This document shows, one piece after another, positions 349 to 20,318 of a DNA stretch of 20,318 nucleotides (the stretch's first letter is position 1; each line of letters starts with the position of its first letter). The notes below the pieces were generated by a model. The model saw nothing but the letters and a program-made list of their open reading frames with translations, searched no databases and was not told where the DNA came from. A program made the position numbers and the translations under genes. Source of the DNA: Ectocarpus siliculosus (Eukaryota > Sar > Phaeophyceae > Ectocarpales > Ectocarpaceae); the NCBI GenBank assembly GCA_000310025.1, contig FN649758.1, positions 1,560,281 to 1,580,598 of the forward strand, in the 5' to 3' direction.

Positions 349-573
349 CACGTTGCAGGCGTTCAGTAGCTTCCCGTCGTACGACGCCGGTCTGCTCGCC
401 GAGGCGGAAACCTCCTCGCCGCTCCCGACCCCGTTCCCGATGCTGAGGTCACCGCCGCCGCCGCCGCTGCCGGCGTCAAGCAGCAGCTTGTGCACGGCGA
501 AGACCAGGCCAAACCCGATGGCTCCGATTATGCACGCGCAGGCGGCAGGGCCGGCTCCGGCCACCAGGAGCGC
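349..573 (-). CDS. RWA-like gene exon 8 (C-terminal helix and tail)
   Basis: Acceptor GAACAG|GCG, donor GTG|GTGAGT, 75 codons (residues 510-584). It opens with a membrane segment ([20 protein letters not shown]) then a Gly/Ser-rich tail. The pyrimidine tract is a C-rich stretch about 40-60 bases upstream of the AG, with an in-frame TGA just before it. The reading frame also stays open through the donor to the window edge, so this exon might be longer than given or be followed by another beyond the window. Confidence 0.65.
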
Positions 574-3500
574 CTGTTCGTTTTCGTCGTTGTCATTGTC
601 GTTACCGTTGCCGGGGCGGGGCGGGGCGGGGGGGGGTCAGGAAGCAACAACAGCAAATGCCGCGGTAGCGTCAACCTGGGCCGTGGTTCCTCACCGCTGC
701 TTCAGGCCTGCAGGGAAACGCATCGACAGCATCATCACACAACGACGACGACATCAACAACAACGACGACGACGACGACATCATCACACCACGACGACAA
801 TGACAACAGAAGCCGCGGCTGCTCCGGGCATGCGCAGAGAATGTCGGGAGGAAAGCATCAACAACAACTACAACAACAGCAACAGACAACATCATCCACA
901 AGAACGGCAACAACGTCCCTAGGCATGCGAAGAGAATGTTGGGAGGAACGCATCAACAACAACAACAGCAACCAACAGCAAACGACATCAACAACAACAA
1001 CAGCAGTTAGCTAGGATACGCAGAGCTTGTCCGGAGGAACGCATCAACAACTACAGCAGCAACAACATCATTACCAACAACAACGTCCCTAGCAATGCGC
1101 AAAGAATGAGGAACGCATCAACGACAACACCCACAGCAAAAACAACAACAACAACAACAACAACAACAAGAGCGGTTCCACCATGCCACCGCGGCTAAAA
1201 ATAAATATATAAGGCAAAGCGTTTTCATCACCTTCGCCACGGCCACGCAGGCGGCGACGGTGCACGCGATGCCCGCCAGGTTCCGCAGGCACGCCGAGAG
1301 CTCGTCGGGGAGACACATGCCGCGGAGGGACATGGTCAGCCGGTAGAGCTCGCGGCTCACCAACACGTAGCAAACCGTGACGATCACCATGTTGAGCTTG
1401 GGGCTTCCGGGGACCACTACCAGGAGGGTCTTGGCATTGCTGGTGAGCCAGATGTGGTGCTGCATGAGGTAAGTCTCCAGGGTGATCTTGCCGAGCGAGT
1501 GCAGCGGCTCCAGGTAGCGCGTGCGCATCAGGGGCGTCAGGTTGCGGACGTAGATGTAGGTCAGCACCGGGATCGCCACCCCGAAGTAGGCGTTCTTCTG
1601 GTTGTACACCAGCTTCTCGAGCTGGGATTTTGGTCGATGGCAAAGGCGGGGGCGGACGGTAGATTGTACACGAGCTTCTCGAGCGGGGATTTCGGTCCAT
1701 ACAGCAGGGTCGATGTTGGGCAGATTGTACACGAGCTTCTCGAGCTGGGACTTGGTCCATACAGGGTCGATGGCAAAGCGCTCGGGGGGGGGGGGGAGGG
1801 GACTGCAGACTGTACACGAGATTCTCAAGTTGGTCGATATAGGGTCGGTGACACAACTATGCGGACGGCAAGGAATAGGGGCTCGGGAGCAGGCAGGACT
1901 GTGTAGCAGCGATACACACGTTCCGAACCCTGGCCGTCAAAGCCACCCACCCCTTCGGTGTCGGTTCAATGATTGTGTGTTGTGTGTGTCTTTACTACAA
2001 GCATCGATCGGCGCTAGTCGCCCGACCAATGAAGAGATGCCAGTCTTCTAACGGAACACAACACCCGAAAAGTTTTCTGGTCGTCCGCGCCCGCACAGCA
2101 CGGGGGCCACGCATGTGTGTGCATTGGAGGGAGGGGGGGGCTTTTGTGCAATTAAGGAGCACCACAGGCGTCAAGACCACAACACGTTAGGGATAATGAC
2201 GGCCAAAACTCGCTCTTCGTATGCATGTCACCACAAACAAACACACACACACACACACACAGAGATCGTGGCCTTTAGAAGCACTTTGTATTTTCAACCG
2301 CCCTGAGACTGACGTCTTTTCATTGGTCAGCCGATTAGCGCGGTCGATGCTAACAACACACACACACTGAGACTGACGTATTTTCATTGGTCAGCCGGTT
2401 AGCGCGGTCGATGCTAATTAATAACACACACAAACAGGTGCTTACCGGGAGAATGTTCGCAGCCCACCAGGCGGTGGCCGACAGCAGGACAGCGGCCACC
2501 GAGCCCTTGATGGCCCACTGCCGCCCGAACGGCAGGGACTCGATCTTCTTCACCCACTGGGCCGTGGCGGGGTAGTTGAGCGCGAAGATCATGCCCAGGA
2601 AGGTCGACCAGTGGTCGAGGGACGTACGGAAGTACCACTCCCACATGGTGCCGTTACCGGCGCCTACGACCTTCTCACGCCCCAGGAAAAAGAAAATCTG
2701 CAGCACCGAGGGGCGGGGGGTACACATGTAAACGCCTGCCGGAGAGGTGAGGCGTCGCATTCCCTACAATGCCAGGACGGAGAAAATATGTACGAAAATC
2801 GAAAACACACACACAAACAGTCTGAATATCTCACGAAAACCACAGACATCATCAGATACACGCATGCACATAATCGCCGTACAGCACTATAGACAAATTG
2901 CTAGTCTACCACGGACGCTTGCCTGTGGAAGATATGTGTTTGTTGTTTTTGTCGTAAGAAATAAATAAACAAACAAATAAAAACGAAATACAAATGAAAC
3001 AAAACTAAACACACACACACACACACACACACACACCTTTTCGAAAATGTGGAGGTCCCAATCCCACACGCAGAAGATGATCGACCCGGCTACGAGCAGC
3101 TTCCAGCGCATGCCGTTCTTGGTGTAGTTGGCCGACTTGGCGGGCGACATGATGGCGTACACGACGAAGAAGTAGAAGGTGTGCAGGGGGCAGATGTAGT
3201 ACAGGATGTACGTGTTGCCCATGGCCATGCACAGCAGGATCACGAGGAAGTTGAGCCGCCACAGCATCTGGAGGAGGCGGACGGCCCCGTAGTCGCCCTG
3301 TCCCGAACAAACACGCCGATTGCAACAAATTGGGGGATAGGGGTGAGATTGGACAAGCACGCTGATCAACAACAAGGGCCGGGTTGTGACACCAGCAAAG
3401 AGGCGAGGAACCAAAGGGTGCGAACAAGGCGCGCGCAAACACACGAGCAGGTTCTGTATTCACGGGGGCTGGGGAGGTTACACCGTTGTCAAGCACAGTA

Positions 3501-6500
3501 AAAAGAGCGGGCAAGACCAGTATGGCGTTAAGCACACAACGGCTGAAAACCTCCCTGCACAAACTCAAGACAAGAAAGAGTGCAACTAGACAGCGACACC
3601 TCACGCACAAAACAAGAAAATTCCCGAAGTGCACAGTTTCGAAACGCGATGGTAGCCACCGTGTGAGGCCGTAGTACACGCTGGCGGAGGGGTCTTGACC
3701 GCCGCATGACCCACCTTGAGGTAGAAAAAGCTGAAGTTGCCGAAGCCGGTCATCCAAACGTACGCCGTGATGAACACGCGGATGGAGTTGTAAACCTGCA
3801 AGCATCAAAAGGAGCCATGGAGTATCAATAGAAAAAAACGCCATCATGAGGTGGAACACCCCCGCACGCCACGTCTTCGGAGAAAGACCAGCAGAAACAG
3901 GTGGTTGCTCTTCGCATGCTTCGCGAGGGACGGGGACACACCGGGCAATGCCATCACTTCATGAAACCCCAGCGGAAAATCAAAATCGAGGCGCGCTTCT
4001 CTAACCCGAACTGGTGCCCTCGCTGACTAAATAGGGCTTTGCGTCAGTAGAGTAGCACCGCAAGAGGTACATACCTTGCGAGCGGAGATCTAGCGGTACA
4101 CACGCATAAGACAGAACTCTCTCGCAAGCGACATCTGCTGCAGTAAAGAAGTACTTCCATTTAGGTCGGTTGGGTAGAAGCACCTCGTGGGCGGAGAAAT
4201 AGTGGTACATGAGGAACATGAACTGCATCCACCCCTTCCACTCCTCGGTCTGCTCCCTGTTGAGCACGTCCCCGCCCTTCGACTTGCGCACGTTCAGCGC
4301 CGACGACACCAGCAGCATCAGCGCCACGCACCAGAACATGTCCATGTCGTGGGCCTGCCATCCAAAAAAAAAAAAGAAGAAACAAAGCCCCGCGAAGGGA
4401 GCAAGGTTCGGGTGAGACTGTTGAGGGCACCGCCTGATGCCCGCGGGCCATCAACCACACCCACCCACGAACGAACAGCAGCAGCACCACCGCCGCCGCT
4501 CCCAGTAGCCTTCGAGGGGCTGCTCCTGTCGCACAATCCGCAAAAAACAAAACAAAACACACACACCCCCTTCGCGAGGATAATAATATTGGTTTTAGTA
4601 GGGGGTACGGGGATAGGGCAGGGGATACGAACCCCCCCCCTCTCTCTGTTTTCACGGTAACATTCTAGAACTCTCGGCAAGGCGGTCCGCCGCTCTTGCC
4701 CCAGCCACGCGACCGGTTTCCCTAGAAATGAAGTTTTACGAGCAAACAGAACAGGGAGGTACGTAGACCCTATCCATACCCCAATTTCCCCGACTGCATG
4801 CTTTACTCAACACGTGCACTTCACAGAAAAGTACGGCGAAGGCTGCTGGGACCCCAACTTCGGCGACTGCATGTTTCACCCAACACGCTTGCGTAAGTGA
4901 TAAAAAAAAAAAAAGCTGCGAAGGCTACTGGTACCCAACTTCCCCCGATTGTAAGCTTTATTCAAACATGCTTGCTTCATAGAAGACCCTACCCTGCGAA
5001 AGCAGCCGCACCTTCTCGCCGTGAGCGAACGGCGGGTGGTGCTCACACATGTACGCGAACGTGATGAGAACGCCCAGGCGCGACAGCTCCCACGAGAACG
5101 CCCGCACCGACGTCAGCGTCCGCGACAGCGGTTCCGAGAGAACCTTCTTCCCGTGACCCCCTCCGGCCGCCGCTACCGGCGCCGCCGCTGAAGCGTCGCC
5201 GCCGCCCGCGGGCACGGCGGCGGCGGAGCCAGAAGCTGAGGCATCGGGGAGCTGCTTCGCGTCTTCCGACGCGGAGGCGGTCCGGCTGGAGTAGCGCTCG
5301 TGAAGCCACAGGCAGCCGTAGAGGACCTGCAAGACATGGGATAAGTACGGCATGATATGTACGTTAGGTAGGTAGTACCAGACTTGAGATAAATACGACA
5401 TGCCATGTACAAGACACGAGGAAAATACGGCAAGACATGGAATACAAGACATGGGGGGATACATAAATGTGGTACAAGGCACCACGAGAGTTGCGGGAAA
5501 AGCACGACAAAAGAGTTTAAATTAAGGAATAATAAAAACACACATAGAAAGATTACCCATTCGAGATATACCCACAGTCGAACGGGATGTGGTGGAGTCT
5601 TTTCAGTGAGTGGAGGGAAACCGGCTGGGTACTGGACTTATTTCGAGTCTTTTTAAGTCTATACACTGTGTACGCACTACTGCTGTATGCATATATAGCA
5701 TATAGCGGTGCATTGATCGTGTGCGGCAGGAAAAACCAAAAAATGAAAAAATGAAAACGAAGACATTAGGCTTTTCCCCCGTCGGCGATGTTTTTTTTTT
5801 TTGCGGCGTTTCACGGAATTTTTTGGCTCTTTTTTTTAGTGCCAAAAACGCCTTTTTCGGCGACTTTCGGCGACTTCCACATGTTTTTCGGCGAGTCATA
5901 GTTCAGTTTCGGTGATTGTTGGCGATTGTCGGCGACGTACATAGCATATACTTCCGTAACACAAACGAGTGGGTCGCGACGCGGTTGGACTGCTGCGGAG
6001 GTCACCTGTCACCTGTCCGCGAAAAGCGAAATGATGTGTCCTTCGTCCTTCTCTTATTTTTCTACAAACTACATCTTGCATGTTACGCTGGTGTGTACAT
6101 GCAATATTCCGAGCCCTCAGCTATCAAACAAATCAACACCGAAATGGAATACTATGATGCTTCGATACTTCGACGTTACACATGGCATGCACGCCTACGT
6201 CCGGGCAAAAACATGCAAATCTGGACAGAGGTACTGACCCACCAACTACGAAGAAGTAAGACATCTACACGAAACTATGTAACTGAAACACAGGTCATCA
6301 GTCGCTTTCTTCATCGCTGCCATCGCTCTGGTCGCTACCGCCGCCGCCGCTGTTGGCATCTTCGAAATTAATCGGCACCGTGAAATTAATCGGCGAGAAT
6401 CGGCGACCTCAACCCATGATTCGGCGGAGCCCCCTCCCAAAACGGCAGTTTTGGTTTTCGGCGACAGTTTTTTTTTAGGCGGGCAGTCTTTTTTGACGGC

Positions 6501-7349
6501 GACATATTTCGGAATTCGGTGTTTTCGGCGGTCGCCTACGGGGGAAAAGCCTAGACATGCATCGGAACTTCAAATATTCGAATCAGCTACAGAAAGCAGA
6601 GTCCACCTAGGTCGGTGTCTGTATCTCTGCGGTGAACGAGTGTCGACCGCGCTAGCCCGGACAGACATCTGCAGCCCTCAAAAGAACAACTCGAAACGCT
6701 GCTGCTGTCTGCTGTCTGGGGGTACACCGACGGGGTGTGTGTGTGAAGTGTGAAGTGTGCGGTGATGTTTGTGTGAATGTTTTCTTCTTTCGTTCCCTCG
6801 TTCTGTGTGCTGTGCGACTCCATGTACTCGGCAGTGTGCAGCGAAAAGGGGACGCCCATCGGATGCTATCCTGCCGCTAGAGGGAACAAGGTGGAGCTAT
6901 GTCGCCGGCACACCAATGAATAGCAGTCACACACACAACCGGAGCCGTCCCCCTGCCGGTTGTTTGCGTACAAGTCGAGAGTACAGAATAGGTCCTCTTT
7001 AATGGTTGTCGGCCGTGTGCTGCCACACACGCGAGGATATTGCACCAAACTTATTACGTGACTGCTGTATCATCCTCGCCAGCGTGCAGCGGAAAAGCTG
7101 CACCCATCCAATGTTATCCTACCGCTGGGGAGAATTAAAGTGCTACCAGGAGAGGGAGCTCTCAGTCACGAGGGCATCTCGGAACACAGGAGCGGGTTTA
7201 GATTCGAGGATTCGAGGGAACCAAGAGAGAAATGCTTGGGAGAAAAGAGAGAGAGAGCGGGGGACCAAAATACACCACCTCAGTTCGCTCACCCAATTGG
7301 CTCCAAATAGCACGAGTAGCGCGAGCGCTGTCAGCTGGATGCCCTCCAT
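349..7349 (-). CDS. Cas1p/RWA-like polysaccharide O-acetyltransferase, multi-exon, 3' partial
   Basis: Coding exons in transcript order: 7349-7293, 5326-5012, 4354-4184, 3795-3715, 3297-3037, 2697-2446, 1621-1232, 573-349. All introns are GT-AG and all junctions are phase 0; the joined frame gives 584 residues without a stop. The family (Cas1p 10-TM acyltransferase; plant RWA, animal CASD1) is a Golgi membrane protein needed for O-acetylation of glycans. Visible family signatures: [14 protein letters not shown] (155-168), YICPLHT (242-248), [12 protein letters not shown] (314-325), and [17 protein letters not shown] (422-438). Length and order match plant RWA: one short N-terminal helix, a variable low-complexity loop, then the multi-helix domain. 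There is no N-terminal SGNH/PC-esterase domain as in CASD1. Start: ATG at 7349 is the first ATG after an in-frame TAG at 7436. The 3' end is not resolved. In brown algae an acetylated matrix glycan such as fucoidan would be a candidate substrate (inference). Confidence 0.88.
707..1169. repeat. Minisatellite of about 78-95 bp units ending in an (AAC)n tract, in intron 7
   Basis: Units start at about 828, 923, 1014 and 1092 with GCATGCGMAGAGAATG-like sequence followed by GGAGGAACGCATCAACAAC and CAA/CAG-rich filler; a weaker unit starts near 707. A pure (AAC)n tract occupies 1141-1169. On the gene strand the intron is therefore GTT-rich. The long plus-strand frames here (poly-Gln, poly-Thr) are repeat artefacts. 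Confidence 0.85.
1232..1621 (-). CDS. RWA-like gene exon 7
   Basis: Acceptor CCCAG|CTCGAG, donor AAG|GTGATG, 130 codons (residues 380-509). It starts LEKLVYNQ, then carries [19 protein letters not shown] and [17 protein letters not shown] with the conserved His. The acceptor lies inside a tandem repeat and a second intact copy lies 123 bases upstream, giving a possible in-frame 41-residue extension. If the 3' donor is not used the frame reads on into a poly-Cys tail and stops at 1118. Confidence 0.88.
1603..1830 (-). repeat. 61-62 bp tandem repeat spanning the exon 7 splice acceptor
   Basis: Repeat units begin (plus strand TGTAC of TTGTACACSAGCTTCTCGAG) at 1603, 1665 and 1726, and a degenerate, poly-G-expanded one at 1811. 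On the minus strand each unit contains the acceptor/exon start CAG|CTCGAGAAGCT. The AG is intact at 1622 and 1745; the middle unit has CCCCG instead of CCCAG, and the fourth has changed AG to AC. Confidence 0.9.
2304..2416. repeat. 64-bp tandem duplication in intron 6
   Basis: TGAGACTGACGT starts at 2304 and again at 2368; each copy runs through TTTTCATTGGTCAGCC and GCGCGGTCGATGCTAA with only a few differences and is followed by a CA tract. A separate (AC)10 tract lies at 2241-2260. Confidence 0.9.
2446..2697 (-). CDS. RWA-like gene exon 6
   Basis: Acceptor CTGCAG|ATT, donor CCG|GTAAGC, 84 codons (residues 296-379). [20 protein letters not shown] corresponds to the conserved Arg-x-x-Leu-Asp loop and following helix of RWA/CASD1; a further helix is [19 protein letters not shown]. 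An AG slightly upstream would shift the frame and is not used. Confidence 0.9.
3010..3036. repeat. CA/GT microsatellite abutting the exon 5 donor
   Basis: A pure CA run, read as (GT)n on the gene strand. The exon 5 donor GT is the first repeat unit, so there is no unique sequence between exon and microsatellite. Confidence 0.9.
3037..3297 (-). CDS. RWA-like gene exon 5
   Basis: Acceptor GGACAG|GGC, donor AAG|GTGTGT, 87 codons (residues 209-295). It contains [10 protein letters not shown] and [17 protein letters not shown], both family-typical membrane segments. The donor is the first unit of a (GT)n microsatellite, so the intron starts with about 27 bases of GT repeats. Confidence 0.9.
3715..3795 (-). 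CDS. RWA-like gene exon 4
   Basis: Acceptor TTGCAG|GTT, donor AAG|GTGGGT, 27 codons (residues 182-208). [20 protein letters not shown] is a near-perfect family match and directly continues the YHYFSAHE end of exon 3. Confidence 0.9.
4184..4354 (-). CDS. RWA-like gene exon 3 ([14 protein letters not shown] signature)
   Basis: Acceptor TGGCAG|GCC, donor GAG|GTGCTT, 57 codons (residues 125-181). It holds the most diagnostic family block, [14 protein letters not shown], followed by the helix [13 protein letters not shown]. The hydrophobic start ([18 protein letters not shown]) is another membrane segment. Confidence 0.92.
4778..4985. repeat. Three degenerate tandem units (73 and 82 bp spacing) in intron 2
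   Basis: ACCCCAATTTCCCCGACTGC (4778), ACCCCAACTTCGGCGACTGC (4851) and ACCCAACTTCCCCCGATTGT (4933) start three related units. Each continues with a CTTTAYTCAAAC-like stretch and the first two reach a GCGAAGGCTRCTGG segment. The rest of intron 2 (4355-4777) has poly-A and CA-rich stretches only. Confidence 0.8.
5012..5326 (-). CDS. RWA-like gene exon 2
   Basis: Acceptor TTGCAG|GTC, donor AAG|GTGCGG, 105 codons (residues 20-124). It finishes TM1, then has an Ala/Ser/Gly-rich low-complexity loop (about 36-78), then a second helix ([13 protein letters not shown]). A better-looking donor a few bases downstream (CAGG|GTAGGG) would break the frame with exon 3, so GTGCGG was chosen. Confidence 0.82.
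5767..5788 (+). repeat. Left terminal inverted repeat
   Basis: It reads TAGGCTTTTCCCCCGTCGGC and continues GA. Its reverse complement is at the right end with one mismatch (C for A at position 17). Confidence 0.8.
6532..6553 (-). repeat. Right terminal inverted repeat
   Basis: On the minus strand it reads TAGGCTTTTCCCCCGTAGGC then GA, matching the left end of the element. Confidence 0.8.
6836..7135. repeat. Diverged direct repeat, about 50 bp, 248 bp apart, in intron 1
   Basis: GTGCAGCGAAAAGG at 6836 and GTGCAGCGGAAAAG at 7084 begin two similar stretches that share GCATCC/CCCATCC, TATCCTRCCGCT and GAG-rich ends. They lie between the inverted-repeat element and exon 1. I see no gene in this part of the intron. 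Confidence 0.65.
7293..7349 (-). CDS. RWA-like gene exon 1 (start codon, TM1)
   Basis: The 19 codons read [19 protein letters not shown], a hydrophobic helix that continues into exon 2 ([12 protein letters not shown]), just as the first helix of plant RWA proteins runs into a charged loop. The donor is TTGG|GTGAGC, phase 0. An in-frame TAG 87 bases upstream and no intervening ATG support this start. It is too short to be convincing alone; the fit with exon 2 is what carries it. Confidence 0.68.
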
Positions 7350-9299
7350 CCAGCCCCGCGTATGGTTTGTTCGGGCTCGTTTATCCGCGGTAAGCGTGAA
7401 AGAGGCCACGCAACAGGCCGCAGCGGCCTCCCACTACCCGAGAACATGGGGGCATCACAGATGCGACATGCAGGCCGTGGGCGGGGGGGGTTGGGCAGGA
7501 GCGTAGATGTCGGAGATCGGAGATCTGCCCCACTGCCCCGGATCCCCGGATGAGCATCGCAGATCCCTTGTATGCATAGCATCAACAAGCGTTGATAAAG
7601 CGGTGCGGGTGGCGTCGTCATCTTGCCCTCTCTAACCCAACACACAGCAGTGCGATGCGCCTCCGCCAAAATTGTTGTATCTGCGAAAGAAAGAAGGTGT
7701 CGGCGAAATGGCGAAATGCCACGCCACAGAGTTCGGACACACACACCCACAGATTATAGATGCACCGCGCCCGTTGGTTATCGGATTGATCTCTGAGTTT
7801 GTTTGGTCTTTGTGCATGACTGAAGGTTCAAGAACGTTGCAAGGGGATGTCTGGCACTTCTGATTCTGCGCTACCGTCGTTAGATAACGTTTTTTTATTT
7901 AGATTAGCAATGAATCCATAGCGTCAGAGGAAGGCTACCTGCATTTATTTCCAAAATATCCCGAGCAGCACGCAGCGACATCTCCCCTGTGGGTAACAGG
8001 CTCAACAAGACAGTTTGGTAGCCGTCTTGTGTATCTCTCTGCATGTTATGCTGGAAAGGTGCAGAAGGAAACCCTTCATGGAAGAAGCAAAAAAACACAC
8101 ACACACGTGCGTATTGCACAAGGTACAACATTTTACTCCCTGCTTCCGCACGTTGATCCCCCCAGGCAGGCTTCAGCAGGCCAATGTTGGCAGGTCTCAT
8201 GTATTTTTCTCTTTCACTCACGTCACAATGCAAGAACATTCAATTATTGTGGATGTTGACATGCATGTACAAGATTCCAGCGGGTGCAATAACCACATGT
8301 CTCATGTACGTACCAACCTTGTCTTGGACGACGGGTACATGCATGTACGCACCATTTCAGTTCCAACACGAAGAAGCCAATTCTCGATTGATTGTGAAAG
8401 TATGGCACATTTTTGACGAAAAAACTACTCTGTACCATGGTATGTAGGTACACTGCTGTATTTTTTGATGTAGTAGAGTCTAAGTGCATACATGCACAAC
8501 CTCGGCGTCAATGAGGAGGTTACAATGCAGACAATGAGTTAGAGACCTGCCCACCTTTCTTTCGCTTGGATTGCTTCTACAAGCAATATGCAATAGATAC
8601 ATAACAGCGATTAGCATGAGGTGCGGCTACAGTACGTCAGCAGGCACATCAACGCGGCGGGGTCAGGCGGTCATCATGTAACTTTTTATTTCCTGAAGCA
8701 GCCAGCAGCGCGTATGAAAGGCGTCTATACATGCATGAAAGAATCATGTGAGTGACAGCATCATGTTCCACAGATACATAGATGTTCGTAGGACCAGTAC
8801 AAGGAAGCTGAGAGGAACAGCTTTGCTTTATCGCCGCCGCTCACACGGTCGGATAATACGTTACTGAAGCTTCGTCCGAAGTATCCTGGGCATCCTGGGC
8901 AGAAGGCATAGTATGCGACGCTTGTCCTGACGATATCCCGGGTACTTTCATCACACAGCAGCCCGTAGGACCTGCGCCAGTGGCGTTCGAACCGGGGCCG
9001 AACAACACCTTGGAAGAAGCCACACAAAATGCTGCACCATGACGGGTCGAAGAGCGATCGGGATGCCCACTAAACTTCGAAAAACATGTAGTAAGCGGAT
9101 GATGATGTGTAGCACGTGAGAACCGGGGACGATGTCGGAGATAACGACAACTAGGGGCACTTCAGACGGCTCCTACCAACGGCGGGACAAGTTGGACGTT
9201 GGTGCTCGCAGAAGTACGCACGAGGGATCAGTCTGAGCAGGGGTCAAGCATGACATGGGTACGAGACGTATATAGCTCGAGGCAAGCGCTCTCAGATCG
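7350..9299. other. Intergenic region upstream of the RWA-like gene; no gene seen
   Basis: This should contain the 5' UTR and promoter of the minus-strand gene; no clear TATA box or start motif could be assigned. Open frames are short and show no family resemblance. It holds several copies of ACATGCATGT, including the 14-bp palindrome GTACATGCATGTAC at 8335-8348 and a near copy at 8259-8270. The part from about 8760 onward may be further remains of the decayed transposon. Confidence 0.6.
8259..8348. repeat. Paired ACATGCATGT palindromes
   Basis: GACATGCATGTAC at 8258-8270 and GTACATGCATGTAC at 8335-8348 are near-identical palindromes 77 bases apart. Related ATACATGCA(T/C) strings recur at about 8487 and 8728. 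They could be binding sites or chance low-complexity; no evidence separates these. Confidence 0.5.
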
Positions 9300-9920
9300 G
9301 CGCCGATGGCGGGGGCGTGGCCTTGTTGGTGGAAAGTGATGACGTGCCACCTCTGTTTGCCTGAGGGCGCTCCCTTGTGTTCCATTCGGTGCAGTCAACG
9401 AAGTAAACGTTTAGGGACGTCCCGTGGCCCTGAATGCCCTTCACCAGATCGTAGAGAAGGCCGGTGGTGACCCGAGACAGGCCGGCTCGCATTCGCTGAG
9501 AACCGGGGCAGCGATGACTGACTCTGGCAGCTGGGGGAGAGGTACCGTAAAGACATAAGCAGGGAGAGGGTAGATGGATGAAGATTCGGGCACGTATTTA
9601 CATACTGTTCGGAAAACTAGCGAAGGGGAGGCAGATGTCGCAGAGAAAAGGTCGAGCAAACACTAAGTTAGGCAAGGGCAACAAGAACCAATCTCACCTT
9701 GGTTGTGGTGGATGTCAGTGGTAGAGTGCCATTGGGGGTCTGGGTAGTACATTGATGAGGCGGTATTTGTTACGACCGACCAGCTGACACATAAGGCAAA
9801 CTTTTGATTCCGGCTGAGAGAGGGAAGCGGCCGGTTTCGCGCCCTCATCATTTGCCAGTGAGATACTTCTCCTTCCGTAGAAATTGATAATGGCAATGAC
9901 ATCTACACTCACCCGGTCGC
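9300..9920 (-). pseudogene. Decayed piggyBac-like transposase fragment
   Basis: Reading the minus strand across frames gives pieces in the order expected of a piggyBac (DDE_Tnp_1_7) core. About 9905-9830 reads DVIAIINFYGRRSISLA then AKP, like the family's D-E-x-x-I-x-F-x-G-R ... K-P block. About 9810-9735 reads QKFALCVSWS ... MYYPDP, like its K-x-x-x-L-C ... Y block. About 9440-9395 reads GHGTSLNVYFVD, like its G-H-x-x-x-x-D block. About 9355-9320 reads QRWHVITF, then in another frame SLSTNK, like its W-x-x-x-V-x-L-S-T block. At least two frameshifts and stops separate the pieces and the Glu after the first Asp is missing, so it cannot encode an active enzyme. Ends and inverted repeats were not located. 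The assignment rests on motif memory. Confidence 0.5.
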
Positions 9921-12900
9921 AAATGAAATAGAGAAAGATCCAAGACCAACAATTTTCAATTCGCCACGGATGGCGCCGAAGAGCGGCGACGATGCGCATA
10001 TATGTGCGGTGCATGTGTGATGAAAACGACAGGCTGTACGTACTGTAGGTATAGGTACGCTCCTAGCCCCCGCGTCTCGGCGGCTTGCGCAAAACCCATT
10101 GACCTGTCACCCTTCGAGCAAGCTTCCCATCTATTTGTTTAATGTGTCCAAGAGCTGTGTCAACAAACACGACTAGGGTGTGGTACCCAGGACATACGCA
10201 TCGAATCAATCCCAGTACCCCACCGTCGTCCGTCACACTTGCTCGCCTCCCATAGACAAGTCTGAAAGATAGTTCTACGGCAACGGGTAATGGCGGAGGC
10301 AGTGCAACTACCTGGGATAGGATTATCGAATGAAGGAACGGTCCCTCTCCGCTGGAGGACCCTCGTCCCCCTTTGTTCAGTCTATCAAAGAGAATAAGGG
10401 GACGTCAAGCGTTGTTGTTCTAAGAGGTTGTCAACCAGTGAGTCTTCATCAAACGGCCCCCCTTCATGTGTGGACCTCACAATCCTTGGTGTCGTCGTCG
10501 GGTTATAACTACACTAGCCCTACCATACGGCAGCTGAGTGGTATACTCCGGAGTAGAGTACAGATAGCGACCGCAATTAAGAAACGCTGATATTAGGTCC
10601 AGCCTCGAATTCTTATTGTGGGCTATAAACTCAGCGTATGTTGTTCAATTTCTGTGTCAAGTTTCTTATTTTTTCGTGCCGCCAAATACTGCTGAATTTC
10701 TGAATTTCTTAAACCGGCAATTGCTTACTTTCCTCTCCTTGCTTAGTACATTACACAACGTTCAAATTAAACAAATGATTTGCCCTCACGAGAGCTGGCG
10801 GAGAGCACCACCAAAACCGTACAGCAGACAGTATATCGTGGTTCGCAGCCTGTCTGTCTGGTGTGCTGTCCCAGAGCCGGAGCGCCAGAGAGCGCCAGAG
10901 CCGGCAGGGGGCCGGAGGAAGCGCCGCAAAACAAACACACTCACTCCCCCCTCGTCGTACAACTAATAATGCACTATGGGAGGGGGGGGGGGTAGTGGGA
11001 GAGGGGGAAAAGAGCGAGAGAAAGGAGGAGCTGGATGTGGGGTGTTTCTTATTCGACACACTTCCCCCCCGTAACCCCTCGTTTCATATGTAGTAGGGCA
11101 GCGCTCGCCGCTGTTTCTTATTGAGACATTTCTTGTTGTTGTGTGACCCAGACTGAGCTATGTTTCTTAACCCTGTCTTCTTATTTTTCGTGGGAAAGTG
11201 AGCCTCTATTTCTTCAAAAAAAAAAAAATAATTGCGGGCGCTAACTGTAGTATAGAAATCGATTAGGGAAATCCTGTACGGGTCAGGTCAGGACTACTAT
11301 CTATACTGCTGCTGCAGATACCTCCTCAATGGTAAAGCAAAAAACAACAGCACGAGAAATAGAGCCGTTCGAAAGGATGTGTTGAAGGGATCTTATCTTT
11401 GCAATGGGTGTTGGGGTACAACTTTTGGATTCTTGACAGAGTCTGTTTAGTTAGTCATATACGATAAGTCACAAACTACCATAAATCTATAGGCTATTGT
11501 ACATGTCCATGAATACAACCCACTACTGCTTGTGGGTATCACTCGCTGCATGTGGAACCCACGCTGTTGTCGCGCAGCACAGCAGTATAACTCCTCTATC
11601 CGTCGACATCCGTTTCTACCTGACTGACCTGCGTTAGTTACAGGTTGCCAGGTAGTAGGTCGTATAGTGCTGCGCTATGGATCCTGTACCGAATGTAGAT
11701 CTGCTAAATATCTGGTGCATAGTGTGTTTATCGCACCTATGCATATCATGGCACCAGTCTCTGTACAAACAAACGCCGCCCGTTGGCCTAGCTCCTTATC
11801 GGAGTTATCGCACCGGGGGTGGGTGGGTTACTCCTTCGAACAGCTACTACTGCTGTGTAGCAGGCACGGAACGGATTACCGGCTGTCGCCCTTGCGTTCA
11901 TCAGTTGGGGTTGTACACTTTTCCGTTGAGCACTCGTCCAGTTGCACTTGTTGCATCGTAAATACTACCCGTCGAGGCCCGGTTCGACACGTTTCTCCAA
12001 CGATCGGCGTCGTACAATATGTTTATCCGCGCAACGAAGATCCAGCGCGTGAGTGAGTACGTACAATACAGAAAGGCGGAGTGCCGGCAGAAAGATCCCC
12101 ACCTGGGGAATAACGCGAGAGCCTCGCTCCAACTACAGCAGCTGCTAGCATCATAGACTATGTACGTACACCACGGATCCACGTCTCATGAACAAAATGA
12201 GTTCGCTTGAGGAATAGAACTTGCCGAACGGCTATAATATGTACACTGGTGCGTAGAGCTTCAGTTTAGACTACAGCAGTGAATGCAGGTACGACCGCAG
12301 CAGCAGCATCTGCGTAGTACGTAGTTGTAGGTGGGTGTCCACGGATATTCCAAAGCGAAGACCAATCAAACTGCAACCAAACAACAACAAACCTGGTAAT
12401 AACGTTGTCTAATACACTTCAGCACAATGATGCGTCATATGCATATGCACACCCTATCGCCGAGATGCTCTCTCACGGTGAATGTGGTGCATGGGAAGTG
12501 GATGAGCAGGACAAAGGACGGCAATCCTCTTTGCGCTGTCGAAAGTGTTCTGTTCCGAAAAATAATTTGAAATTTGAACCAGGACCCTTGTTGACAGTCC
12601 CGTCCAAGATACAATCCGAAGGGCTTCGGGTCTTCCAGGTTGTTCGGGGAGGTCGAACGGATCTTTCCTCCGGTATCCATCGAGCTAGATTTTTTAAACG
12701 TTGGATTTTTTTTTTTTGTGCCAGACCACCGAAAACGTACGTTTGCGTCTTTGTCACAACAACGACACCCGCGTTCCTAATTTCTACGACACGCTCCTCA
12801 ATCTCTCTCTTCCTCTCTCGCGAAGATAGCAGTCGCGCCGGCAGGAAAAGCAAGTGAAACACTGGGAGCACCGATCGGAGATAGTTCACCAACCCTAGAC

Positions 12901-13047
12901 GCGAGGAGCGCGAGAGAAAGAGCGGCGGCACCAGTTTTCGGTAACCCTCCTGCTGCTGTTTTTAAAACAGAATCGGTGGTGAATTTCGGTTCGGAAAAGT
13001 AGGCGACAACCGACAGAGAGCGAGCTGGGAGCGCGGTCTTGTCCATC
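9921..13047. other. Intergenic region upstream of the membrane protein gene; no gene seen
   Basis: The left part may hold the eroded N-terminal part of the piggyBac-like element. The rest has only short, unsupported frames. Local features are a short direct repeat of AGCGCCAGAG near 10880-10900, a G12 run near 10981, and several GTACGTAC palindromes between 12050 and 12170. From about 12785 the sequence becomes CT-rich (CTCTCTCTTCCTCTCTCGCG), which may be promoter or 5' UTR of the plus-strand gene. Confidence 0.55.
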
Positions 13048-13322
13048 ATGATCAGCAAAGCCTTCGGGATCGCGGTAGCGTTAGCAGCGACAGCCGCGCC
13101 ACGGGGCCGGGCGGAGCAGGTCCTCGTGGCCAGCCTGGTCGACGACATAACGTACACCGACATCGTGCCTTCCGGCACGTGCGCGGACGGGTGCGTCCGC
13201 TATGAACAAGCCGTGGCTCACGTCACGGGAACCCCGGATCAACTCGACTGCGGCTTACAGACCGTCTCGCCCTTTGACTCGTCCACGCCAGAGCCGGGGC
13301 TGCTGAGGGCGCTGATATACTG
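13048..13322 (+). CDS. Membrane protein gene exon 1 (signal peptide)
   Basis: ATG at 13048 in context CCATCATGATC. The first 22 residues have a Lys, a hydrophobic core (AFGIAVALAATAA) and an RGRA-EQ cleavage-like site. The remainder has four Cys before the junction. Donor ACTG|GTGAGT, phase 2; residue 92 becomes Cys when joined to exon 2. Confidence 0.85.
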
Positions 13323-14081
13323 GTGAGTGCCCTCCTCCTTCTGCTGCTGCTGCTGCTGCATGCCTTGTGTGTGATAGATCGACTGACAAGAGGTTTGCTG
13401 GAAACTCGCACGCGCTTGCCAGCACATCCTTTCTCCGCTTCTCCGCAGAGGCTCCGGTTCTGGCTGACCTTTGCCGACGGGGCATGGGGCCGGACAGCGC
13501 CAGGCTTTGTTGTCACGACGACCCAATAGATTACCAACCTCTACAGATGACTCCTGCCACGCCCCCACTCAACGATTACACGCCAAACTGCGGCTCTGCT
13601 TTGTTGGTGTTTTTCGTGTAAATTCTCCGTGCTTGTATACGTACACGATGGGCCGGCACACTGTTCTCGCATATCATTTTATCTAAAAAAAAAAACACCC
13701 CTTGAACACACATCAATGCAAAAAACACAAAAACAGCGAGGACAGCAGCGGCACCCTCATCGAGCAGGGCACCAGGCCCTGCGTGTTCGACGTCTGCGTC
13801 GACTTCTCGTGGAGCTCCGGGGACGGAGACGGCGACGGGGAGCTCACCTACGAGGTGCGGGTGGAGCGAGAGTCCAAGCCGAGCGCCCCGCACACCATCT
13901 ACGTCGACCTCTCGGTGGCCATCGACCCCACCGCCACCAACACCAACGCCGACTCGTGCCAGTTCAACGGCACTTGCGAGGTGCAGACGTGCGAGGAGCC
14001 GAACGCCTACGGAGCCGTGGTGAGTGCGTGTGTGTTGGGTGGGGACATCCCCGCGTGCGGTAGTTTTGGTTGAGGTTTGAG

Positions 14082-14120
<39 letters not shown>

Positions 14121-17100
14121 GCGCGTGCTGCTGAAAACAAAGCAGCGCCTCTTTGTCCAGAGCGAGCACACCACCAGTGATTTCTTTCTATCTAACTAAA
14201 TAACGCATTCTTTTCTGTTTTTTTGGGCTGTCGGAGACATGCATACATACATCATGAGAGGCCGTTTTCAACGTTGTCGGTTGACGGTACTTGTATTATT
14301 TGTTGCGAATCTGTTCCTGCTTGTTGTTGTTGTCGTACATATATTCCATGTTCCAGCCTTGTGCTGTACTACTTGTGACGTGTGTGGGCAAGACTTATTT
14401 ATGTTCCGTGGTATGCATTTATGCGGCCCATCAAGCACACGCACGCCGAAGAGATATACTACGTAGCCAAAATGCCGAACGCATCGTCGAACCTTGACGA
14501 GATGCAGGGTTTAACGTAGCTGCTTCGTGTGGCGATCGCTGATGATGGCGGCTTAATCTAAAATCCACCTGCACATGGGGCATAGACGCCCCTCTGTTTG
14601 GTCCGTTTCTCGCAACCACCACCGCACGAGAGGAAGGAAGTGAGCTGTCTGTTTTATTCTGTGAGATGAGTCGGTTGGTTGAAGAGCTCCGTTGTTGCAG
14701 GAGGTGCGCCTTGCCGTATGACGTACTTTACGCTACTAACTCGGCGGACTATCTAGTGAGATACGTACGTGGATTCTGCGTGCTCGTCGTCGAGCATGCG
14801 AGCATGCCTGATGGCCCCGTGGCCGAAACAAACGGTAGACACACGCTGCAGGGAGGAGGAGAGACATCATAGGGTACAGCAGCGGGTAAACCTTAACCTT
14901 CCCCCTTTGAAGGATTCCTAGCCGATTGCTCCGTCCTCTCACACACACCCGCGAGAGGCTGGTGTGCATGTGCATGAAATGTTTCCACAGCAAGCGTTTG
15001 TTCGGCAGGAAATGCAGCGATACACCGCTGCTCCGGCCGCTGGAGTGTGTACGTTGTTGTTAGTACATACAGGCAGTAGATGTCTAGTACTATGTACAAT
15101 GAATGAGTCCATGATTTCGACGCTAGTCCGCAACACCTGTTCGGGATATCGTGTAGAGGCTGCTGCTGTGCGATTTCCAAACCCCGAGTTGCAGCAGCAG
15201 CAGCAGCCGCGGACGTGGAAAAACATCCTCTGGGCACGTTCTGACGACCTTAACGCGACCTTACCGGAGGCAACGTTGTGCGCAACCTTTATATTTTGTG
15301 TTGGGGTCGGACTGCTGCCGGCGCACACTATAATAGTAGGGGCGATAATTTCCACTGTTGTCCGTGTGCAGAACTGCACCTCTACATATGCTTCTCAAAA
15401 CAAGACACAGCGGAGAAGGGACCAAAGGGGGGTACACTGCACACTGAGAGAACGTACAGTATTTGTTCCAAGAGGATTGAATTGTGTTCTTTACAGTATA
15501 TTGTGTTCCGGGTGGTGGCATTGTGCTGGCACCAGGAAAAGCTTGGGCGCTTTCGTTTCATCACTTCTGTAGCCCTGCTGCTGCTGTGCCGAATGGCGCT
15601 TGAGCAAGAGAGCCTGCATCCCCCCCGACAAAACTCCTGGGCACGGAACCGTAAACCTGGGGTCGCCGAACAGAACTTGCGAAGAGCCGGTCAAACTTCT
15701 CTCTCTCTCTTCTTGCCTTGTGCAAGCCACAAACAATACGCATGTGCAGCCCCGATTGCTGCAGACCGTAAAGGTTGGAGGCGGAGTTTGCGGCATACCT
15801 GCTGTGTACCAGTAGTGTCGTGTGTATTGTAGGATGATCCAACGTACGTTCAACCAAAGATGCGAGTGTTCCGATTCCCGAAGCGGGAGCGGTGGTGGGA
15901 GAATGGGAGAGCGGGTAGTGTGTGAATATATGTTGCGTACGGCAGCGTAAGAGACAACAGCAGCTCTCGCGACTCCTTGGAGCCCACGAGTATTATTCCC
16001 AAGTGCCCCATCGGTCGTTCTGGGCATGACTCTCCTTGCTCTCTTTTTGTACGGCTCTCATGTACATCTTATCGCCCTCCTTCGAGCACGGAGACAGCCT
16101 ACCATGACTTGCGTCAGGAGGCAGCGGTGTACGTACAATACTGCAAAGCAAGGTTGTTTCCTTATTTTTCTCACACAAACGACACAGCTTTTCCATTTCT
16201 ATGTGCATCCACATCAGATAAGCAGTCGAGGATAGTACTTGATAGTCTTTTTGCTTCTTTCGTGTCTTCAGGCACGTGTGAGCGTTGAGTGTGAACACCG
16301 CCAAGGCCACGCCCGGCAACAAGGGGGGGGATAGGTGGGCGTGCACGTTATTTAGCACAACTCGGGCCCCGGGGGCCGCAGGCAGGCAGAAAATAGCCGC
16401 ATCGTTGCTACTACGGATGTGTGCTGAGACAGAAGCTATGTCCCAGTTTTCCACCGCAAAAGAATGGTTCCGTTTCACGTTCCATGCTTTTAACGGTTTT
16501 ATGGATGCGACGGGACGATGCCGTTGGCGAGTGCGTCCGACAAGATTTTAACGCTGGTGGGATGTCATGCAATTTGTAGAAAATACCAAACTCCTGGGTG
16601 GCTGGCTGGCTCTCTGCTACCTCTCAAGTGATGCGTATTCCCAACAGTCGATGCACTAAAATCGCTACGGCGATGTGAAGACAACAACAAACCGCCTCTC
16701 GAAGACGCGTGGTCAACGGTCTAACCGCTAAGACATCATGCAAAACATAAGAGCCCCCCGCCCCCAACCACCAACCACCAAACGAAACTCTTACTTCCCA
16801 TGCGCCTCGCTCTTGTCGGTTTTCGAAACCCAGATTTCCATGACGGATGAGTACGGCGACGGTTGGGTGGGCGGAGTTGACGGGTACTACAACACGTGGC
16901 AGCTTACGGACCTGACGACGGACACTGTCTGGTCCAAAGGCACGCTCGCGGACAACCACGAAAGGTGTGTGCGTCGCCAACGACGACGACGTTGGTCGGG
17001 GAAAAAAATTTCCGGAGGGGCGCGAAAAAGAGGAGAAGACTGATGAGAAAAGCGGACTGGCAGTCAGTCGCGGGAGCCCAAAGTGTTTCGACCTGGTGTA

Positions 17101-20100
17101 GCTGTTGTTGTTGCTGCTGCTGCTTGCTGGCGGTGTGTACTAGTATCATCTCCTGGGACGTCAAGCCCGCCGGATGTCAATACGATGTATATGTCTGTTG
17201 CTTTTGCACGAGCGATGAAGAAAGCTTCAAGAAACGTAATGTGGCGGGAGGGAGAGACGTTGAACGTTGTGTTATTGGTGGTGAAAGAAGATGGGATGAC
17301 AAGAGGAGACACGGGGTGTGTGCGCATGTGAGGAGTTTCGTCGCGCCGCAGCCAACCAAGACAAGACCTCGTAGACGTTTCATTTTGATTTCACGCTGAA
17401 CCGACACCTTTTTTTTTTGTCCACGTCCCTTCGTCCCTTCCGACGCCGACGTTAATATCGACGCGAAACCAGTGCCACGATCAAGGAGTGTCTAGCGGAC
17501 GGCGAGTACATGTTCAACACCACCGCCACCTCGGCCTTCGCCGACGACATGGGATGGGGCATCTGCGACAACTACGGTGCCGCGGGTGAGCAGAAGAGAC
17601 AAGAGAAGAGACACAAGAGATGTCTGTGTCTCTCGTCTGCTCATGTGGATTTCGGGGAAACGCAGCTCGCAAGCATGCGGGCGAAGTATCGTAACTACTC
17701 TCTGCTGTGCCTCTCGCTGTCAGTGCGGAGAGTCAGACAGAGATGTGCATAGATTCAGAGAGAGAGAGAGGTTGCTTTCCCCGACACCCACTGGTTTGTG
17801 GTTGCGCTAACGGAGGAGCAACCGCAATTGGTTGGCCTGAGTACTGTTCTCCCTCTGTTAAGGACACCATTTTTAATGACACTCCCCCGGTTAAGGGACA
17901 AATTTCTTTTCACAGGCATGGTGGCTCGCAGAACGTATAGCATATGGAGGGGTATCACGATACATGCGACCCGAATAGAAAATAGAAGTGTCAAAAAGAA
18001 TACGAACCCCAAAGAAATTATCGGCGGATTTCACCCGCTCGCGTTCTCCGCATGTAAGGCACGCACGCAGCAAATACACGCCAACTAAATGATGAATTTA
18101 AATAGACATTTCTAACAAAAATAAAATCCCAACGTGATCGCAGGGGAGGGGCTCAAGTTCACGGTGCTGAACGGCGCCTGCGACGGTGAGTCGGCGGAGC
18201 TAATCGCGCGCGCGACCGCGGAGGAGACTTCGGACGCTGGGGACTCCTACTGCGTCCTGCCCGCGCCGGAGAGCGACGTGGATTACCGCACCTCAACCTG
18301 CACCGCCCTGTCTTCGGGCATGAAGATCGACGGAGTCGGGCTGTTCTACGACGACCGGTGCAACAGCGCCGACTACTCGGGGTGCTTCGCCCGGTCGATC
18401 CCGGCGTGCAGGCTCTGCTTCTGGGACAAGGACCTCTGGTTGTCGCGATTCCCCAGCTCGCGCGTGCCGGACTGGGAGCTGTGCCCGTGCTGCGTGGCGG
18501 ACACGCTCGGCATCGACTGCGCGAGCGGCGGGGGCGGGGGAACCGACGAAGGGGTTATCATCGGAGTCAGCGTGGGGATCGCGGGAGTCATCGCAATCGC
18601 GTGCTGCCTGTCGTGCGCCTTCGGGCCGACCATCGTCCGCTTCGTAAGTGCCATAACTGCTGCTGCTGTTGCTGTCGCGCCTAACCCTCGTGGTTGCTGC
18701 AGCGGTAGCTGCTGCTGCGAAGCTGCTAGAATGATTGATTGGTTGGTTGTTTTTTTGCTGCCGCTTGCAGTTGGGAACGGGAGAGGGGGGGGGGGGGCGT
18801 GCCCGGTCTCGCCAAAGGTCGGCACGGTCCGCTGCACGGCCGCGTACTACAACACCACGATGTCGCGAAAACTCACAATAGCACATTAGTTGGCCCATTT
18901 GCTTTTTTCGCTCGCCGTTTTTCACCCTGTTCTCGATAGACACGTCTGCGGGGGCGGCGGCTGCGTTTTTTTTTGCCGCCCCGGTTTCTCTCACTCCCGT
19001 GTAGATGACGCTTTTGCGAAGACTTTCCTGCCCAGCATGTTTGCTCTGTTGAGAGTCCCCTCCGAAAGAACGAAATGCCCGGGTACATTTATAAAAATAT
19101 AATGTCTTGAAGCAAAAAAAAAAGGTTGTCTTGACGCACCGGTCGGTTGTCTCTGGTGACATTCTGGCAGATGTGGGTACCTGAATAAAAATATAGGTCG
19201 ACGAAAGGCCCTTGTAAAAAGATAAAACGGGTTCGTATGCGCGCGCGATCGGTCCTTGTCTCTAACGCGTACACGTGTGTCTCCCGGGTGTTTTTTCGGC
19301 GTGTGCGTGTGCGTTGTTGCTGCGTGTCCTCGTCCGTTTGCTCCCCCGCACGAACGTGCGGCGGCTGCGGGGGGTGTCACGTCGGCGTCGTCGGCGTCGT
19401 CGTTGTTGCACGACCACCAAAAACACAACACCACCACCAACACCAACGAAACGACAACGAAACAACCGTAGTTCCGCCGCTTCCAAAATAAGCGGCTCGA
19501 TGAAGAAGACCTCGACATGGCCGGCGTCCTCGGCACGTCGGCGTTTCCGGAGTCACCAACACGCTACTGAAGCTAATGCTGATGCTTTTGTGCTTCGGCT
19601 GCTGTCGCTCCTCTCCTCTCCTTTCCTTTCCTCTCCTTGCCCATCTGCCTTTGTGTGTGTCGTGTGTGTCTTGTGTGTGCACCCCTGTATGCGTAAAACC
19701 TTCCTTCTGTGTGTGGGGATTTGGATTGGACCGGTACGATGTAAAACTTTTCAACAAAAACCCAGCTCCGCCGCATGAGGAAGAAGAAGCACGCGGAGGA
19801 CCAGCTGGACCTGGACGGCCACCCCGGCACCTCGGCTTTCCCGGAGTCCCCCGGCGGCGGCATGGGCGGCAGCGGCAACACCCTGCGCGGCGCGGTGCTC
19901 ACCCACGGCAACCGCGACCGCGGTCGCTCGGGACACTTCCCTATCCCTCGCTTCGACTCCATCCGCGGACGCTTCGACTCGGGTATCTTCGCGTCTAATG
20001 TTGGGGGCGGGGGTGCGGCCGCAGCCGGCGGCGTGGGCGCCAGAGCTCACGTCGGCGGCGGCGGGCCGAGCGGGGAGCTGGAGAAGATTTCCGCCGAGCA

Positions 20101-20318
20101 GGCAAACGTGTCGACCACGGCGCAGTCCACGCCGTCGGGCGCCAACGGGAACGGCGTCGGTACCGGGGGCGGCGGCGGGAAGGCCGGCAACGCGCCGCGG
20201 TCAACCGTGCTCGACGGCCGCCTGGTGGCCCAGGGGTACACGACGACCGACATGGAGCGGCCGACCTCGTCCGGCCCAAGCCGGGCGGCGACGGCCGCGG
20301 GGGGGGGGGGGAACCTCC
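13048..20318 (+). CDS. Single-pass membrane protein with signal peptide, YGDGW-module ectodomain and alternative tails; 3' partial
   Basis: Exons: 13048-13322, 13737-14019, 16834-16964, 17473-17585, 18144-18643, then either 19472-19570 (stop) or 19766 to the window end. Junction phases 2, 0, 2, 1, 0 all agree. The common part is 434 residues. Residues 1-22 form a signal peptide (likely cut after GRA). The ectodomain is acidic and Cys-rich, with an EYGDGW module (192-197) that continues through MGWGIC (256-261), and N-glycosylation sequons at 169 and 245. A Cys-dense juxtamembrane part (CFWDK, LCPCC) precedes a Gly stretch and one helix (about 405-427), followed by a basic cytoplasmic start. 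Function is unknown. YGDGW modules occur in many protist and bacterial surface proteins, from memory and without an assigned role. The tail is discussed under the two last exons. Confidence 0.82.
13341..13359. repeat. (CTG)6 in intron 1 of the membrane protein gene
   Basis: Six CTG units start 18 bases after the exon 1 donor. The rest of this intron (13323-13736) ends in a poly-A run and an A-rich acceptor region. Confidence 0.85.
13737..14019 (+). CDS. Membrane protein gene exon 2
   Basis: Acceptor AAACAG|CGAGG, donor GTG|GTGAGT. It encodes residues 93-186, with a GDGDGDGE acidic stretch (120-127), a beta-rich part (LTYEVRVERE, PHTIYVDLSV) and a cluster of four Cys near the end. The frame is GC-rich at third positions, in contrast to the flanking introns. 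Confidence 0.87.
14020..16833 (+). other. Intron 2 of the membrane protein gene (2.8 kb)
   Basis: It is bounded by GTG|GTGAGT and ACCCAG|ATT. It contains a (CT)n tract at about 14085-14120 and a (CAG)n tract at 15191-15206. Open frames of up to 202 codons occur on both strands but none resembles a known protein and their composition matches the surrounding non-coding DNA. Its size, four or more times that of the neighbouring introns, suggests an old insertion, but I found no terminal repeats. Confidence 0.7.
14085..14120. repeat. (CT)n microsatellite in intron 2 of the membrane protein gene
   Basis: A near-perfect CT run, broken once by a G, about 65 bases after the exon 2 donor. Confidence 0.9.
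16834..16964 (+). CDS. Membrane protein gene exon 3 (YGDGW module)
   Basis: Acceptor ACCCAG|ATT, donor AAAG|GTGTGT, phase 0 to phase 2. It encodes ISMTDEYGDGWVGG, then NTWQLTD, the characteristic start of the module. It follows a 2.8 kb intron, by far the longest in the gene. Confidence 0.85.
17473..17585 (+). CDS. Membrane protein gene exon 4
   Basis: Acceptor ACCAG|TGCC, donor GCGG|GTGAGC, phase 2 to phase 1. It encodes ATIKECLADGEYMFNTTATS and then FADDMGWGICDNYG, the second half of the YGDGW module (a Gly-x-Tyr strand and a Trp-containing strand). Confidence 0.85.
18144..18643 (+). CDS. Membrane protein gene exon 5 (Cys-rich stem and transmembrane helix)
   Basis: Acceptor TCGCAG|GGGAG, donor TTC|GTAAGT. 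It encodes residues 269-434: a Cys-rich region with an ACRLCFWDKDLW block, a Gly-rich linker (ASGGGGGTDEG) and the single helix VIIGVSVGIAGVIAIACC. It ends in phase 0 at TIVRF, immediately inside the membrane, so the choice of last exon sets the whole cytoplasmic tail. Confidence 0.9.
18644..19471 (+). other. Intron between the transmembrane exon and the first tail exon
   Basis: It begins GTAAGTGC after exon 5. It has CTG-rich stretches (18658-18722), a G13 run near 18785 and a T/G-rich centre; the part before the acceptor of exon A is CAA/CCA-rich with GTCGGC repeats around 19380-19400. A long minus-strand open frame overlaps exon 5 and this intron but is a composition artefact. Confidence 0.7.
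19472..19570 (+). CDS. Membrane protein gene alternative last exon A (short tail)
   Basis: Acceptor CCGTAG|TTCCGC in phase 0 after exon 5. The 33 codons start FRRFQNKRLD and end GTSAFPESPTRY followed by TGA. Used as the last exon it gives a 466-residue protein. Over the first 29 codons it aligns without gaps to exon B (16 of 29 residues identical by eye, including all of GTSAFPESP). No AATAAA signal was seen just downstream. It could be a real alternative terminal exon, a poison exon, or a decaying duplicate. Confidence 0.55.
   Translation, partial: FRRFQNKRLDEEDLDMAGVLGTSAFPESPTRY
19766..20318 (+). CDS. Membrane protein gene last exon B (long Gly-rich tail), cut by window end
   Basis: Acceptor ACCCAG|CTCCGC in phase 0. 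The frame is open for 184 codons to the window edge. It starts with a basic patch (LRRMRKKKH), then LDLDGHPGTSAFPESPGGG, a duplicated RFDS unit (PRFDSIRGRFDSGIF), and a Gly/Ala/Ser/Thr-rich, probably disordered region. A run of 12 G near the end encodes four Gly and could hide a frame error. The strong GC3 bias and long open frame mark this as the main coding tail. Confidence 0.82.

Follow-up and report, generated by a model that had tools for sequence, protein, structure and literature searches.

Two homologous tail exons in one gene

The window analyzed here is a 20,318-nucleotide (nt) stretch of the Ectocarpus siliculosus genome (contig FN649758.1, positions 1,560,281 to 1,580,598, forward strand; G000:C33:1560281-1580598 in our numbering). 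An approximately 16-kb run of N, viewed at both of its ends and possibly an assembly gap, starts directly after the window end. The window contains a gene for a protein with one transmembrane segment, and behind the transmembrane exon lie two adjacent tail exons, A and B. The two exons are tandem duplicates, and either one could continue the protein. Positions below are those of the window.

19472 to 19570, plus strand: exon A, the short tail, 32 codons followed by TGA (19568-19570), reading FRRFQNKRLDEEDLDMAGVLGTSAFPESPTRY
19532 to 19558, plus strand: GTSAFPESP block of exon A, codons 21-29
19766 to 20318, plus strand: exon B, the Gly-rich long tail, at least 184 codons, reading LRRMRKKKHAEDQLDLDGHPGTSAFPESPGGG... 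and entering the run of N
19826 to 19852, plus strand: GTSAFPESP block of exon B, codons 21-29

The first-pass annotation, made by a model from the letters of the window, had proposed that both exons follow a usable AG, enter in phase 0 and align without gaps over 29 codons. All three statements were borne out. The acceptors end in AG (CCGTAG for A and ACCCAG for B), and the 434-codon upstream frame enters each in phase 0. The gapless alignment has 16/29 identical and 20/29 similar residues with a pairwise expectation value (E) of 3e-9. The TGA of exon A is the fourth codon after the shared 29-codon block, and exon B is open for 155 further codons, up to the window end, both as previously described. 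The exon starts are 294 nt apart. A membrane-proximal basic stretch and the GTSAFPESP block occur in both tails; the Gly-rich tail is present only in the long form.

Six-frame searches of the assembly (189.5 Mb, 492 contigs) with exon A and the first 32 residues of exon B returned only the A and B loci, which matched each other with E values of 0.021 and 0.013. No third copy was returned at E values up to 10 by this search, which scores only the best candidates, leaves runs of N unread and is no proof of absence. No convincing further tail copy was seen in the window, in the locus of a paralogue on contig C21 (L003) or in the sequence behind the run of N (L004). The best other match of A or B in the small search of these three sequences was a GTSAYP stretch at L003:1018-1059 (E = 0.047). 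Homology of the intron zones that precede A and B was rejected, since 77/300 shuffles score as high as the real pair. There is no A/B similarity after codon 29 (276/300 shuffles score as high). Only the coding stretch has thus been kept.

A and B differ at 27/87 nucleotides, and the differences are unevenly spread. Codons 21-29, which encode GTSAFPESP, have 5 synonymous and 0 replacement differences. Synonymous and replacement divergence are equal in codons 1-20 (pS 0.36, pN 0.37), and pS is 0.47 across all 29 codons. The two parts differ with a Fisher P of 0.0016, and the chance of 5/5 synonymous differences without constraint is 0.0018; the split between codons 20 and 21 was picked after the alignment had been seen, and both values serve as guides. 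An analysis with no chosen split used 20,000 simulations in which 27/87 differences were placed at random on B as the ancestor with all sites variable. A run of at least 9 identical residues arose in 0.22% of the simulations, and at least 16 identities with no stop arose in 2.65%. Chance similarity of A and B was rejected on the pairwise E value, the genome searches and the simulations. The comparison of synonymous and replacement differences upholds the earlier suggestion of selection on GTSAFPESP. These results confirm A and B as tandem duplicated, same-phase, adjacent tail exons.

Alternatively, exon A could be a duplicate of the tail exon that has lost, or is losing, its function. It is without B's long tail, 13/29 aligned residues differ, and the GC content at third codon positions is 0.72 in A versus 0.90 in B. 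The frame stayed free of stops in 52% of the simulations, and the open frame of A is therefore weak evidence of function by itself. This explanation has to accommodate an old divergence that nevertheless left a nine-codon block without replacement, and an acceptor, described below, at which the longest AG-free run on the plus strand of the window ends. We consider a dead copy improbable.

The upstream gene and its paralogue

The gene upstream of the tail exons is intact. Its five exons join into one open frame of 434 codons (1302 nt) that leads in phase 0 into A or B. The donors are, in order, GTGAGT, GTGAGT, GTGTGT, GTGAGC and GTAAGT, and the four inner acceptors are all CAG.

13048 to 13322, plus strand: exon 1, with ATG, signal-peptide-like start MISKAFGIAVALAATAAPRGRA and donor GTGAGT, placed by frame and splice sites
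13737 to 14019, plus strand: exon 2, donor GTGAGT, acceptor with a 190-nt AG-free zone
16834 to 16964, plus strand: exon 3, DEYGDGW motif, donor GTGTGT, matches the paralogue
17473 to 17585, plus strand: exon 4, donor GTGAGC, matches the paralogue
18144 to 18643, plus strand: exon 5, end of the Cys-rich ectodomain and transmembrane segment, phase 0 end, matches the paralogue
18644 to 18649, plus strand: donor GTAAGT, common to either tail

The 434-residue protein has 25 Cys and a single transmembrane segment; its most hydrophobic 19-residue stretch starts at residue 405. Pfam searches at E values up to 1 gave no family for the A-form protein and none for the visible B tail. A solved-structure search gave only two matches, with E values of 0.4 and 0.44, which are not significant. 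The gene product may therefore be described as a single-pass, Cys-rich surface protein, and the name receptor, given to it in the first-pass annotation, would be a guess that neither the Pfam nor the structure search sustains.

The paralogue on C21 has exons 3-5 in common with the gene, with 41% identity over the compared part. A stretch related to exon 2 was noted by eye only, at about 1404-1523 of L003. In the paralogue, too, the exon behind the membrane segment finishes with a complete codon, and the tail frame continues in phase 0. This shared phase-0 junction supports the exon limits of the studied gene. The paralogue tail is a single 759-codon frame (L003:5205-7484) rich in Arg, Ser, Glu and Lys, and its comparison with tail B gave no significant match (best E = 28). 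An A/B pair of tails in the paralogue was rejected: nothing convincingly like A or B was seen in the 439-nt intron before its tail. The tails of the two paralogues seem to have been exchanged or to have fully diverged, with the phase-0 junction retained.

Long AG-free zones end at both acceptors

The AG-free runs of the window were ranked by length. The positions of the A and B acceptors had been fixed by the first-pass annotation beforehand, which made the ranking a test that could have failed.

19222 to 19469, plus strand: AG-free zone of acceptor A, 250 nt from AG to AG, the longest on the plus strand of the window
19573 to 19763, plus strand: AG-free zone of acceptor B, 193 nt from AG to AG, the second longest on that strand

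Of the runs between the 1,229 AGs on the plus strand of the window, the longest (250 nt) stops exactly at the acceptor of A, the second (193 nt) at that of B and the third (190 nt) at that of exon 2. Base shuffles were free of AG in 0/20,000 cases for the A zone and 15/20,000 cases for the B zone. Both zones exceed the cut-offs of 100 and 150 nt for AG exclusion zones given in the available text of PMC1431707.

As controls, we used 84 introns from kinesin and dynein genes, each flanked by conserved exons; 83 were scored (L066 gave no candidate), with zone lengths computed using fixed acceptor weights. The control calls are often uncertain: exact profile spacing was obtained for 53/83, and 23/83 pass the score and margin limits. 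The median zone was 50 nt in the 83 introns, and one of them (L038, 221 nt, a low-scoring call) reaches 190 nt. The 53 frame-exact introns had a median zone of 60 nt and a maximum of 113 nt, and 7/53 have the acceptor TAG, as in A. Elsewhere (window positions 1-12999 and the fetched loci, both strands), runs of at least 190 nt made up 2/6,638, or 2/9,802 with later loci included. One of the two belongs to the likely L038 acceptor; the other is an unexplained minus-strand run. Long AG-free runs are rare here, and those that can be assigned end at acceptors. The acceptor anatomy has been kept at both tail exons, which is not expected of a dead copy.

Three observations concern the other long runs. 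In L038 (C26:6456725-6457240, about 208-428), the kinesin intron likely has a TAG acceptor after its 221-nt AG-free run; this may be a separate example of an ordinary acceptor with a long zone. The minus-strand run is 216 nt long, spans about 5383-5599 of the window and ends at 5383; it could mark the acceptor of another gene on that strand. No duplicated exon was noticed near the exon 2 zone.

Candidate branch sites and a model for tail choice

Each zone holds candidate branch sites matching YTNAY.

19262 to 19266, plus strand: CTAAC, candidate branch site of A with the branch at 19265, the only YTNAY in the A zone
19573 to 19583, plus strand: CTAAT (19573-19577) and CTGAT (19579-19583), candidate branch sites of B, the only YTNAY in the B zone
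19608 to 19638, plus strand: 31-nt pyrimidine tract downstream of the candidate B branch sites

CTAAC lies 40 nt into the A zone, which has no pyrimidine run of at least 15 nt. CTAAT and CTGAT lie at the very start of the B zone, 3-13 nt behind the A stop codon and before the pyrimidine tract. The distance from YTNAY to the acceptor is about 206 nt for A and 183-189 nt for B. YTNAY was most frequent 30-70 nt upstream of the acceptor in the 26 high-confidence control introns. No YTNAY occurs between 19584 and 19765.

None of the four GTs that precede the stop of exon A is donor-like (best score -3.0, compared with 2.2 to 3.8 for the five donors of the gene). The choice of acceptor A thus already ends the protein, and the event would be an alternative 3' splice-site choice. 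Competing RNA structures as a means of choice are not clearly supported. The longest stems were 17 nt (A) and 19 nt (B) versus maxima of 16 and 20 nt in 30 shuffles each; the A stem is one above its shuffle maximum, the B stem pairs a G run with the pyrimidine tract, and the fold z-score of 19560-19766 is 0.05.

We propose that the tail is probably chosen by competition of two 3' splice sites with distant branch points, and that the choice is exclusive by construction. A duplication that copied the first part of the tail exon would have created the two sites. Splicing from the donor at 18644 would go to the acceptor of A (19471) or of B (19765). Each acceptor probably depends on a distant branch site near the upstream end of its zone; the candidates are CTAAC (19262) in the A zone and CTAAT/CTGAT (19573-19583) in the B zone. 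Use of a B branch site would remove the whole of A within the intron. Use of the A branch site would cause the AG of A to be met first, and the protein would end after 32 codons. The predicted B branch site lies behind the A stop, and A is donor-less; the choice would therefore be exclusive without any further device. The A-form transcript would carry the B sequence as a 3' untranslated region and need no separate poly(A) site. The short form would most likely act as a membrane-anchored or competing version without the interactions of the long tail. We infer the branch-site roles, the use of both acceptors and the function of the short form from these sequence features.

The first-pass annotation had described a duplication followed by conversion of one copy into a short terminal exon. 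The old tandem duplication is supported; a separate terminal exon with its own poly(A) site is not required. A true terminal exon A with its own poly(A) site in 19571-19765 would place the choice with cleavage and polyadenylation as much as with splicing. Exon A does have a stop and no donor before it, and 19653-19677 contains GT-rich stretches that might pass for a downstream element. The interval contains 0 of eight AATAAA-type hexamers tested, which may not be the signals of this lineage, and TGTAAA occurs once, at 19740. It must also serve as the AG-free zone of B. A terminal exon of this kind appears very unlikely.

The main rival to a choice between two acceptors is a poison exon, in which use of acceptor A leads to an early stop and RNA decay. 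Exon A would then tune the level of the long form, and the 32-residue tail would not be a product. The TGA of A leaves B as a long 3' untranslated region, as such an exon would, and through the GTGTGT sites behind the stop A could become a cassette whose junction follows the stop codon. A poison exon does not need constraint on the protein, yet GTSAFPESP was kept through five synonymous changes. The cassette form in particular finds no YTNAY in 19584-19765 to serve it. We regard a poison exon as unlikely, though worth more weight than a dead copy.

Several points weigh against a choice between the two acceptors with distant branch points. The exon 2 zone (13547-13736), at 190 nt, shows no sign of alternative use, and a long zone alone is no proof of such use because exon 2 has one too. 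The L038 kinesin intron reaches 221 nt, although the call is low-scoring. A long zone may be the mark of a real acceptor rather than of alternative use, and part of the A zone consists of simple repeats (GTC-like and ACC-like) without AG. In human exons, large zones were associated with cassette-type alternatives but showed no such association with the choice between alternative acceptors, as far as the available part of PMC1431707 describes them. YTNAY is a loose motif and has weak support in this genome. Inside the zone of the control introns it was present in 17/26, CTRAY in 5/26 and CTAAY in 0/26, counted with acceptor weights that give TAG almost zero; A and one of the two B sites would rely on CTAAY. 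A divergent branch site may lie closer to the exon. With a score of 2.8, the GTGTGT sites at 19653-19709, behind the A stop, equal the exon 3 donor, and a longer A form could be spliced on to B through them. This cassette form would need a B branch site after 19653, where no YTNAY is present. Finally, the conserved GTSAFPESP block spans only nine codons, and the exon B tail is incomplete with its 3' end in the run of N.

Other observations in the genome

Two features were noted by eye in L004, on C33 behind the run of N. An interstitial TTAGGG-like repeat run lies at about 896-970, and an inverted repeat of roughly 70-80 nt with a short spacer, resembling a small mobile element, lies at about 2950-3160. 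Eighteen light-harvesting matches of equal score (127.6 bits), out of 20 in the genome list, cluster on C92, C232 and C488, which suggests recent amplification or assembly duplication. A light-harvesting protein of this genome matches solved fucoxanthin chlorophyll proteins, with FCP17 of entry 9ygv as the best match (E = 2.9e-122), which marks the organism as a fucoxanthin-bearing alga.

Comparison with known systems

Tandem duplicated C-terminal exons are already well known. What sets this algal gene apart is that a donor-less, stop-bearing duplicate is paired with a long AG-free zone at each acceptor. Judged by titles and the starts of abstracts, none of the literature matches listed deals with algal homologous tail exons that have distant branch points. 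If both acceptors are used, the locus would be a compact example of a tandem exon duplication turned into a tail switch of a surface protein, by a route in which one copy lost its donor, the juxtamembrane motif was kept and branch sites compete. It would also extend distant branch points from vertebrate exons to a fucoxanthin-bearing alga. In genomes of this type, a search for very long AG-free runs may offer an inexpensive way to spot acceptors, both real and alternative.

The TrkC-FL and TrkC.T1 isoforms resemble the predicted pair in having a common ectodomain and different intracellular parts. The short tail of TrkC is unrelated in sequence to its long tail, whereas the short tail here is a duplicate of the beginning of the long one. 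PGRP-LC is an immune receptor. Drosophila PGRP-LC and pip likewise make an exclusive choice among tandem 3' regions, which the available text of PMC9013439 links to competing RNA structures; no such structures are clear in the studied gene. Brown algae are also reported to have tandem repeated exons with alternative splicing in their ROCO genes, where the repeats, in the part of PMC11378527 available, are internal LRR exons of an ectodomain-like part and not tails; that part contains no analysis of branch points.

Human tandem duplicated exon substitutions include 77/236 C-terminal events, among them the 3' exons of tropomyosin, and terminal regions often contain membrane helices, coiled coils or disorder, according to the accessible portion of PMC9741552. 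Exons A and B are like these C-terminal events in that homologous tandem exons would give alternative C-termini. They differ from the events described there (PMC9741552, in part) in that one copy keeps the first 29 codons and then stops, which would make a tail-length switch.

The text available from PMC1431707 and PMC7969005 reports distant branch points for exons of humans, rats and other vertebrates. In human exons with verified distant branch points, the branch site and pyrimidine tract occupy the upstream part of a long AG-free zone, and the first downstream AG is taken as the splice site (PMC1431707, available text). Exons 4a and 4b of OGDH, where distant branch points enforce exclusive use, are the closest mechanistic parallel found (PMC7969005, available text). 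They too are duplicated neighbors: the branch sites used for 4b lie shortly after 4a and are followed by a large pyrimidine tract and a long AG-free zone. OGDH 4a has a donor, and the distance from this donor to the branch sites enters into the exclusivity, whereas exon A is donor-less and ends the protein. The 4a branch point is at an ordinary distance (27-28 nt), and here both acceptors have long zones (OGDH details from the same portion of PMC7969005). OGDH is a vertebrate gene, and the studied gene is not. The locus is perhaps, and we advance this more tentatively than the choice between acceptors itself, an instance outside animals of exclusive choice by distant branch points, in its leanest form, with the B branch site parked behind the stop of a donor-less duplicate and tail length switched by it. 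This version would rest on one branch-site decision and could dispense with both a separate poly(A) site and a second donor.

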